Shown: piece after piece, positions 13,149-15,936 of the stretch | Layout: every line of letters begins with the position of its first letter | Numbering within the stretch: the first letter of the stretch is position 1 | Assembly (NCBI GenBank): GCA_028873075.1 | Contig: JAGWND010000003.1 | Coordinates: 1-44,049, forward strand | Reading direction: 5' to 3' | Length of the DNA: 44,049 bases | Source: Bacteroidota bacterium | GTDB taxonomy: Bacteria; Bacteroidota; Ignavibacteria; UBA10030; UBA8401 | Position numbers and translations under genes: made by a program | Notes under the pieces: generated by a model | Told to the model about the DNA's origin: nothing | What the model saw: the letters and a program-made list of their open reading frames with translations, nothing else | The model's database searches: none

Positions 13149-15818
13149 TCAGAGATTCTCTTTCAGTTTTGCCAGAACCTTCAGTGCTTCGAGCGGCGTC
13201 AGTGAATTGATATCAAGAGTGCGGATCGCGTCGCGCAGTTCGTCATCTTTCATTTCGAACATGGTGATTTGCGTAGTTGAAGGGATGTCTGCAATTTTTT
13301 GCTTGATGTTCCGGGCCTCTTTTTTGTCCGAAGGGCTTTCGCCGTGTGCAGAGAGCTGCGATGATTCCAAATTTGCAAGGATGGTTTTCGCTCGTTCCGT
13401 TACTGTTTCCGGTACGCCTGCCATTTTTGCGACTTGGATTCCGTACGAATGATCAGCGGTTCCTTGCGTAACCGTGTGGAGAAAAACGACCTTGTCCCCG
13501 TACTCGCGCACATCAACTTTGTAATTTTTGATTCTCGGAAGCAACTCGGCAAGCTCGTTCAGTTCATGATAATGCGTTGCGAACAGCGTTCGCGCCCCGA
13601 TATGCTCGTGAAGAAATTCCGTGAGCGCCCACGCGATACTGATGCCGTCGAATGTGCTCGTGCCGCGTCCGACTTCATCGAGTAAAATCAAACTGTGCGA
13701 CGTTGCACGGTTGACAATATTCGCCGCTTCGTGCATTTCCACGAGGAACGTGCTTTCGCCCGATGCAATATTGTCGCTCGCACCGACGCGCGTGAAAATA
13801 TTGTCTACCAGACCGATGACAGCTTTTTTTGCCGGAACGAACGAGCCAATCTGGGCAAGCAGCACGATCAATCCGACTTGGCGAAGGAACGACGATTTCC
13901 CGCTCATGTTTGGCCCGGTGATAATCAAAATTTGGTTCGATGTTGTATCGAGCGAAACAGAATTCGGCACGTACTGTTCGCCGGGCGGGAGGAGAATTTC
14001 GATAACAGGATGGCGCCCATCTTCAATAATAAGCGAAGTTGATGCATTCACTTCGGGTTGTGTATAGCGATTTTCGTGCGCAACTTGTGCGAGCGAGACC
14101 AGACAATCAAGGGTGGCAATGGTCTGTGCATTTCCCTGAATTGCTGCTGCGTGTTCGGCAATTCTCATTCGGAGCGCCGAAAACAATTCTGTTTCCAGTG
14201 CAAGAATTTTTTCCTCCGCATGAAGAATTTTCTCCTCATATTCTTTCAACTCGGGCGTGACGTACCGTTCCGCGTTCGTCATCGTTTGTTTGCGGATGTA
14301 ATCCTGCGGAGCTTTGTTTTTATTAGCATTCGTGATTTCGATGTAGTAGCCGAAGACATTGTTGAAACCGATTTTCAGTGACGCAATGCCCGTGCGCTCG
14401 CGCTCTTTCTTTTGAAGATTCGCGATCCATTCTTTCGCCGAATGTGCAAGCGTTGTCAGCTCGTCAAGCTCGGCATTGTAGCCGCGGCGGATAACGCCCC
14501 CTTCAACAAGTGTTGCTGGCGGGTTATCGGCAATCGCTTTTTCGATTTCATCGGCAAGAAAATCCAACGGCTGCAACGCTGTATCGATGTCGGCAAGCGC
14601 CGAAATGGACTCTGCCTTCCTTGCTTCGTTCCCAAACCCTGTCTGGGAACGACCTTCGCTCAAAATATTTTTGAGCGAGGGAATTCTTCTGAGTATGAAT
14701 TTCATCGCCGTAACGTCGCGCGGCATTGCTCTGCCGGTAGCAATTTTCGCAATGAGCCGCTCAATGTCCCCGATTTCCGCAAGCTCATCCTGCAATTTTT
14801 TTCGGACCGAAGAATGCTGAACCAGAAACGCGACGCCGTTCGAGCGCCAGCGAATTTCTTCCAATTTCTTTAGCGGATGTGCGACCCATTTTTTCAGCAG
14901 ACGTCCGCCCATTGGCGTGCCTGTTTTATCGAGCACGGAAAAAAGCGTTCCCTCCGATGCGCCGCCGAACGACGAGGTGATTTCTAAATTTCGTTTTGTT
15001 GAAGGATCGAGGACGATGGTTTCCGAGATTTCGTGCGGAACAATTTTCGAGATGTGCGCGAGGTTCGCTTTCTGTGTTTCGTTCAGGTAATGCATCGCTG
15101 CGCCTGCGGCAACAACGCCGATACGCATTTCATCGATGCCGAAGCCTTTCAGGGACTGTGTTTTGAAATGGCGCGCGAGCGTTTCAAAACCGTATTCAAA
15201 ATTGAACAGCCAATCGTCGAGCGTTGAAAAAATTCCTTTATAGCTTGTGCGAAGAATGTTTTGCAGCGTTTCTTTGTCCCGTTTCTGAACGACAATTTCC
15301 GACGGTGTAATGGAATGAATTTGCTGCTCGAGTATTTTGAGCGGAATCTCCGAGCATGCAAATTCGCCGGTCGAAATATCCACGAATGAAAATCCGGCGA
15401 CGTCATCTGCAGCGGTAAGCGCATTCGGGAGTGCAATGGCGGCAAGGTAATTATTCTGTTTTTGGTCGAGCACCTTGTCGGAAAACGCGACACCCGGCGT
15501 CACGACTTCAATGACGTCCCGCTTCACAATTCCTTTGGCGAATTTCGGGTCTTCAAGTTGTTCGCACACGGCGACGCGAAGCCCCGCTTTCAATAATTTC
15601 GGCAGGTACGCATCGAGAGCGTGATGCGGAAAGCCCGCGAGCGGCACTTCGCCCGCTGCGCCGTTGCCGCGGCGTGTCAGCGTGATGCCGAGAACGCGCG
15701 AAGTGATTTTTGCGTCGTCATCGAATGTCTCGAAAAAATCTCCCATGCGAAAAAGAAGTATTGTGCCGGGATACTTCGCTTTCACCTGAGCGTACTGTTT
15801 CATCAGCGGCGTTGACAT
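13149..15818 (-). CDS. mutS: DNA mismatch repair ATPase MutS
   Basis: About 889 residues. It has the mismatch-wedge Phe-x-Glu in MGDFFETF (F28, E30), connector, lever/clamp domains (GFNNVFGYYIEITNANKNK) and an ATPase with GPNMSGKSSFLRQ as Walker A and LILLDEVGRGTSTFDG as Walker B. QITMFE near the C-terminus fits a sliding-clamp binding motif. It recognises mispairs and recruits MutL. The start is MSTPLMKQYAQ at 15818, where homologues begin; the ORF track's 30 extra residues are not conserved-looking. The lever region carries a ~12-residue insertion (SEGRSQTGFGNEARK) relative to E. coli MutS, encoded by two tandem palindromes. It is divergent from the DUF1573 gene. Confidence 0.95.
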   Translation of the reverse strand: MSTPLMKQYAQVKAKYPGTILLFRMGDFFETFDDDAKITSRVLGITLTRRGNGAAGEVPLAGFPHHALDAYLPKLLKAGLRVAVCEQLEDPKFAKGIVKRDVIEVVTPGVAFSDKVLDQKQNNYLAAIALPNALTAADDVAGFSFVDISTGEFACSEIPLKILEQQIHSITPSEIVVQKRDKETLQNILRTSYKGIFSTLDDWLFNFEYGFETLARHFKTQSLKGFGIDEMRIGVVAAGAAMHYLNETQKANLAHISKIVPHEISETIVLDPSTKRNLEITSSFGGASEGTLFSVLDKTGTPMGGRLLKKWVAHPLKKLEEIRWRSNGVAFLVQHSSVRKKLQDELAEIGDIERLIAKIATGRAMPRDVTAMKFILRRIPSLKNILSEGRSQTGFGNEARKAESISALADIDTALQPLDFLADEIEKAIADNPPATLVEGGVIRRGYNAELDELTTLAHSAKEWIANLQKKERERTGIASLKIGFNNVFGYYIEITNANKNKAPQDYIRKQTMTNAERYVTPELKEYEEKILHAEEKILALETELFSALRMRIAEHAAAIQGNAQTIATLDCLVSLAQVAHENRYTQPEVNASTSLIIEDGRHPVIEILLPPGEQYVPNSVSLDTTSNQILIITGPNMSGKSSFLRQVGLIVLLAQIGSFVPAKKAVIGLVDNIFTRVGASDNIASGESTFLVEMHEAANIVNRATSHSLILLDEVGRGTSTFDGISIAWALTEFLHEHIGARTLFATHYHELNELAELLPRIKNYKVDVREYGDKVVFLHTVTQGTADHSYGIQVAKMAGVPETVTERAKTILANLESSQLSAHGESPSDKKEARNIKQKIADIPSTTQITMFEMKDDELRDAIRTLDINSLTPLEALKVLAKLKENL
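14626..14652. repeat. Palindrome TCGTTCCCA...TGGGAACGA inside mutS
   Basis: Two perfect 9-bp arms (14626-14634 and 14644-14652) flank 9 bases. The element resembles the dispersed GTTCCCAGAC...GTCTGGGAAC repeats of many bacterial genomes. Here it is translated in frame, contributing about TGFGNEA to MutS. Confidence 0.65.
14656..14678. repeat. Perfect stem-loop TCGCTCAAAA-tat-TTTTGAGCGA inside mutS
   Basis: A perfect 10-bp stem with a 3-nt loop lies three bases from the preceding palindrome. The pair forms a composite palindromic unit within coding sequence, translated as part of LKNILSEGRS. Confidence 0.7.
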
Positions 15819-15936
15819 GGAAAGAAGGTAGCCAAAAAATGAGCGCCAATCAAGAATTGAAATTCGAGAGAAGTTTTGGTAGCTTATTTTATCCCGAAAT
15901 GCAGGCATACGACCTCAAAACAATTTAGGTGTGACG

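Follow-up and report, generated by a model that had tools for sequence, protein, structure and literature searches.

Palindromic repeats and their transposases

The closest described systems are palindromic repeats (REPs) and the REP-associated tyrosine transposases (RAYTs). Subclass 2.6 (RAYT group 5) is found mostly in Bacteroidetes; its flanking hairpins are atypical and lack the GT[AG]G tetranucleotide (PMC6006769). The transposases of this subclass are about 179 amino acids long with NH[LIV]H, WQ, YIH[QN]NP and SS motifs (PMC6006769). The RAYT motif used here was taken from PMC2817692. In-frame REP insertions within transposase genes are a precedent for repeats that become coding sequence (PMC6006769). 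According to the main text of Di Nocera 2013 (PMC3733652), replication and repair genes hold many of the in-gene REPs, which are thought to be tolerated there in flexible regions, and recB of two Xanthomonas species carries different REPs at about the same site. That main text does not name mutS among the REP-bearing genes.

The locus described here is the mutS gene of a member of the Ignavibacteria, located in a 44,049-nucleotide stretch of DNA (the window). Selfish REP-type DNA has very probably landed repeatedly in a loop of this MutS that tolerates it, and one of two palindromes in the loop, A, is very probably a REP-type insertion of a GTTCCCA family. An earlier note on this DNA had supposed that core repair genes seldom tolerate palindromes; the main text of PMC3733652 and many MutS relatives analyzed here contradict this.

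The mutS gene and its variable linkers

The mutS open frame occupies positions 13149-15908 on the minus strand and codes for 919 amino acids. It is intact; the NCBIfam MutS equivalogs NF003810 and TIGR01070 match above the cut-off and 5 of 5 Pfam MutS domains are found. Met31, at position 15818, is probably the conserved start of MutS. An AlphaFold model of the host protein (pTM 0.61, mean pLDDT 75) gives residues 1-31 a pLDDT below 50.

Comparison of about 90 MutS sequences of the order (Ignavibacteria) showed strong length variation in two segments only, after residues 417 and 854. A 79-residue insertion near residue 640 of the G096 protein turned out to be a run of N, an assembly gap. The first variable segment is a hypervariable linker of MutS domain III, residues 410-444 (35 amino acids; positions 14577-14681, minus strand), identified by this order-wide length comparison. 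Measured as the stretch from PxLK to LxPL, the loop has 21 residues in 61 of the 68 members of other families. Its length ranges from 21 to 63 residues in the host's family, where only 2 of 21 members have the 21-residue form. The host loop of 35 residues is thus 14 residues longer than that of most of the order. Extra residues relative to E. coli MutS had been claimed at this site, and phmmer alignment indeed opened gaps of 11 and 3 residues at the loop. The AlphaFold model places the insert after helix 396-422 and before helix 428-444; pLDDT drops below 50 at residues 425-427, in confident surroundings. The earlier note had proposed mapping the site to see whether it is a surface loop, and the predicted structure does show a loop there, flanked by these helices. 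Of 8 hairpins with arms of 11 bp or longer, 7 lie in the two variable segments, though the p-value is optimistic since the second segment was chosen post hoc.

The second variable linker, residues 849-885 (positions 13254-13364, minus strand), was recognized from the length comparison and the AlphaFold model and precedes the C-terminal helices. Strong palindromes occur here in relatives (L025, L018, L013, L300) and none in the host; their arms reach 17 bp, as in AAGATGACCGTCACCTTGAAGGTGACGGTCATCTT of G021. This C-terminal linker may be another landing site. In family f3, the MutS loops (L031, L032, L259) contain LSEVEG, LSDGEG and LSKVEG, which resemble a minimal element CCTGAGCGAAGTCGAAGG; ILSE codons, common in the host's family, resemble the left arm of this element. 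Remnants of old repeats may make up part of the loop.

Two palindromes of different origin

Palindromes A and B lie 3 bases apart, both within the mutS open frame, and were found exactly as the earlier note had placed them, arms and spacing included. Palindrome A (positions 14626-14652, minus strand) is read as RSQTGFGNE. It has perfect 9-bp arms, TCGTTCCCA and TGGGAACGA, with a 9-nt loop, or alternatively 12-bp arms with one mismatch. The hairpin and its dispersed copies identify it as a REP-like member of the GTTCCCA-N-TGGGAAC family. Palindrome B (positions 14653-14681, minus strand) consists of the codons for PSLKNILSE; its perfect core at 14656-14678 has 10-bp arms and a 3-nt loop and codes for SLKNILSE. 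The single-stranded DNA of the A and B region has a folding z of -5.7.

Both palindromes had been taken as inserted. This holds for A, a dispersed element sitting in frame, and fails for B. The sister species G001 has nearly identical DNA at the position of B, CCTTCGGTCAAAAATATTTTGAGCGAA, and the two differ at one base of the hairpin core. Because this native sequence is the same bar one base, B was not inserted and its inclusion in the insertion is ruled out; to judge from the sister's sequence, B is native coding DNA that apparently became a perfect hairpin through one substitution. Its peptide aligns residue for residue among the host (PSLKNILSE), G001 (PSVKNILSE) and G002 (PSVKKILSE).

A dispersed family linked to a RAYT

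The family was searched for with the pattern GTTCCCA-(5-12 nt)-TGGGAAC, with the reversed pattern as control. The idea that A is an insertion had been said to fail if the genome held no other copy. Other copies exist; the pattern occurs at 8 places in the host genome, against 1 for the control. There are 71 copies in the host's family. Of 60 relatives, 30 contain the pattern, and G033 alone has 75 copies. The copies have their outer arms in common and their inner parts differ yet stay complementary. The modal length is 23 bp, and the copies have a weak TCTC flank consensus, perhaps belonging to the element itself. None of the element's frames contains a stop codon. Compared with the canonical CGTTCCCAAACAGAGTTTGGGAACGA, the window copy carries two transitions, one of them synonymous (CAA to CAG) and the other changing Glu to Gly. 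Slippage at such a hairpin had been proposed in the earlier note; the copy shows these two transitions in a gene that is intact. A cluster of near-identical GTTCCCA palindromes with a spacing of about 124 bp, like a repeat array, was seen at G031:C9:306166-306710.

Another 80 GTTCCCA copies were read in context, judged by the open frames that span them and by a small number of Pfam scans, and none was convincingly inside a gene; the copies in mutS are therefore an exception for the family. That the family might be common within genes was rejected for the copies read, since each frame across a copy proved to be an upstream extension or gave no Pfam match.

In relatives, GTTCCCA palindromes or their one-base variants are present on both sides of RAYT genes (L160, L168, L049, L206), about 25-150 bp from the gene in L168, L049 and L206. 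The sole Y1/HUH transposase gene of G033 has two GTTCCCA copies on each side. In G005 a copy adjoins, on one side, the third RAYT gene of the host's family, f1 (L310). Three RAYTs tested scored 101 bits against NF047646 (REP-associated tyrosine transposase), for which the cut-off is 80. The RAYTs at GTTCCCA loci are 179-182 amino acids long with NPVRRG, WQ and SS motifs, WQ and SS being found in all that were read. The histidine motif is NHLH in L160 and L049 and HHLH in L168 and L206; the tyrosine motif is YIHNNP in L206 and L049, YIHMNP in L160 and YIHTNP in L168. By length and motifs, the cognate RAYT appears to fit closely among the HUH tyrosine transposases of subclass 2.6 / group 5.

The foot of the GTTCCCA hairpin lacks the GT[AG]G tetranucleotide and has the TCTC consensus in its flank instead. 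This absence excludes the canonical GTAG families only, because subclass 2.6 REPs are also without GT[AG]G. The GTTCCCA palindromes are REP-type elements, palindromic, dispersed and mostly intergenic, since they flank a REP-associated tyrosine transposase in relatives.

The cognate RAYT has no match in the host genome, G011 or G019, so that mobilization there is deduced from the relatives. The three Y1 transposases of the host were considered as the source of A and rejected; 0 of 3 have GTTCCCA flanks and 0 of 3 match the cognate RAYT. The element is therefore non-autonomous in the host genome. One host RAYT (G000:C200:5337-5657, L150) is flanked on both sides by palindromes of its own, TAGGTCGAAGCGCCGCTTCGACCTA and GTAGGTCGAAGCATCGCTTCGACCTAC (L150 1166-1190 and 1890-1916), and looks like a GTAG-tagged REPtron of another family.

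Recurrent occupation of the MutS loop

Three unrelated dispersed families, GTTCCCA, GGTCTCC and CCTGAGC-N-TCGAAGG, occupy the MutS loop in different species. GTTCCCA is found in the host, G011 and G019, at the same place and in each case in the frame RSQT(G/E)FGNE. The sister G001 has GGTCTCC-N-GGAGACC in its loop; there are 8 copies of this pattern in the G001 genome and 0 control matches. CCTGAGC-[inner palindrome]-TCGAAGG occurs as an exact pattern in the loops of G005, G010, G011, G017, G018, G020 and G021 and as decayed units in G003, G008, G016 and G019. This family is dispersed in 14 of the 15 genomes searched. The close relatives G002 and G004 have a loop without any palindrome. The insertion had also been said to be refuted if all relatives, even distant ones, shared the residues without palindromic DNA; the relatives do not all share them.

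In a MutS tree built without the two variable linkers, G011 and G019 form a well separated clade, with several bare lineages between it and the host. Most simply, GTTCCCA entered the loop at least twice, because these bare lineages separate the host from G011 and G019. The distribution suggests, on the simplest count, at least 4 insertion events: two of GTTCCCA, one of GGTCTCC and at least one of CCTGAGC. Part of the added length of the loop in other members is due to shared descent, not to repeated insertion. One genome was sampled per species, so a recent jump would not show.

CCTGAGC-TCGAAGG units have fixed outer arms; their inner arms vary freely yet pair, often with tandem G-A mismatches. 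In the sample, copies in other genes were seen at two loci, an Eco57I-type methylase (L318) and a secreted protein (L330). The former, in G010, is an inverted CCTGAGC-TCGAAGG pair in frame within an Eco57I-type restriction-modification methylase (L318 801-903). Near-identical CCTGAGC palindromes form array-like clusters at G003:C37:892-10902 and G008:C74:11475-11755. The CCTGAGC and GGTCTCC families were considered as partners of the RAYTs analyzed here, and this was rejected; none of the RAYT loci read carried them.

Origin of the pattern

The two palindromes might have arisen by chance, from the codon usage of an ordinary loop, and B is of a kind that chance produces; the window should by expectation hold 2-3 single 9-bp hairpins. 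It contains 8 hairpins with arms of at least 9 bp and loops of at most 12 nt, where Markov-1 simulations gave 2.6 on average, and two hairpins as close as A and B were found in 0 of 20 such simulations. Synonymous-codon shuffles of mutS regenerate hairpin A in only 14 of 2000 trials and hairpin B in 11 of 2000. Palindrome A belongs to a dispersed family and is read in one and the same frame in the host, G011 and G019. Its dispersed copies rule out a chance origin of A, and chance as the source of both palindromes has almost no probability left. Selection is another route by which such hairpins could be kept. On this view MutS level or activity, and hence the mutation rate, would be tuned by the loop peptide or by a hairpin in the mRNA or DNA of mutS. 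The CCTGAGC arms in mutS covary across eight genomes, with 14 cells changed on both sides, a level reached in 0 of 500 shuffles, and slid controls gave 0-3. The dispersed CCTGAGC copies, however, have equally variable and paired arms; replacement by other copies, or re-insertion, is therefore the simpler account of the covariation. The window copy has already lost one arm pair and the close relatives G002 and G004 lack a palindrome in the loop. A selected function is accordingly highly improbable. Scarcely less doubtful is the more elaborate idea that the loop is a preferred, perhaps selected REP home, where families re-enter and swap stems and the mobile hairpins modulate mismatch repair activity or expression.

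More serious is targeting, in which the insertion machinery would choose the mutS linker rather than merely be tolerated there, either through single-stranded DNA exposed on the lagging template, or by using a resident repeat or hairpin as target. It would explain why three unrelated families lie in the same ~100 bp, two of them at once in G011 and G019, why the loops of G010, G018 and G020 hold two inverted copies, and why none of the other GTTCCCA copies read lies convincingly within a gene. On the other hand, GTTCCCA copies have only the weak TCTC flank, perhaps part of the element itself, and the CCTGAGC family also enters other genes (the L318 methylase and the L330 secreted protein). Permissiveness accounts for the same pattern. 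Targeting is thus unlikely, and the recurrence would reflect tolerance rather than targeting.

The preferred reading, a tolerated landing site, can be put as a sequence of steps. As the relatives suggest, a RAYT of subclass 2.6 / group 5 would have produced or spread the GTTCCCA element, and A presumably owes its mobilization to such an enzyme. The in-frame insertion of A in the host lineage would most simply postdate the split from the two congeners compared, with drift by two transitions afterwards. It likely survived for two reasons: it falls in a loop that joins two helices of the MutS lever/core domain, and none of its frames holds a stop codon; A would be neutral for MutS function. The same spot appears to have been struck repeatedly in the host's family, by at least 3 unrelated palindrome families, because the loop tolerates extra residues.

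Comparison with known systems

A literature search found no paper on REPs in mutS, and a search for the string GTTCCCA gave unrelated primer matches only; the sequence is also absent from the main text of PMC6006769. The analysis ties a non-GTAG family, GTTCCCA...TGGGAAC, in the Ignavibacteria to a specific RAYT subgroup. In addition, a single loop in a core repair protein has independently admitted several unrelated repeat families, which gives a natural series bearing on tolerance, targeting or selection of in-gene REPs.

Like the subclass 2.6 REPs, the GTTCCCA elements are short palindromes on both sides of a Y1 HUH transposase, with further genomic copies and no GT[AG]G foot, in Bacteroidota, and the transposase of about 179 amino acids has WQ, YIHxNP and SS (PMC6006769, PMC2817692). 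Unlike them, the copy studied here lies inside mutS and its host genome is without a cognate transposase. The Rickettsia palindromic elements (RPE) are likewise palindromic repeats in frame within many protein genes; compared by length, RPEs are about 150 bp and often in genes, whereas the GTTCCCA element is 27 bp and almost always intergenic. The REPs in the main text of Di Nocera 2013 (PMC3733652) are similar in being palindromes within repair genes. They differ in being GTAG/CGTC-tagged, whereas in mutS three unrelated families share one loop. Thus a single in-gene REP, including one in a repair gene, is already known; a hot spot for three families in one loop is unusual.
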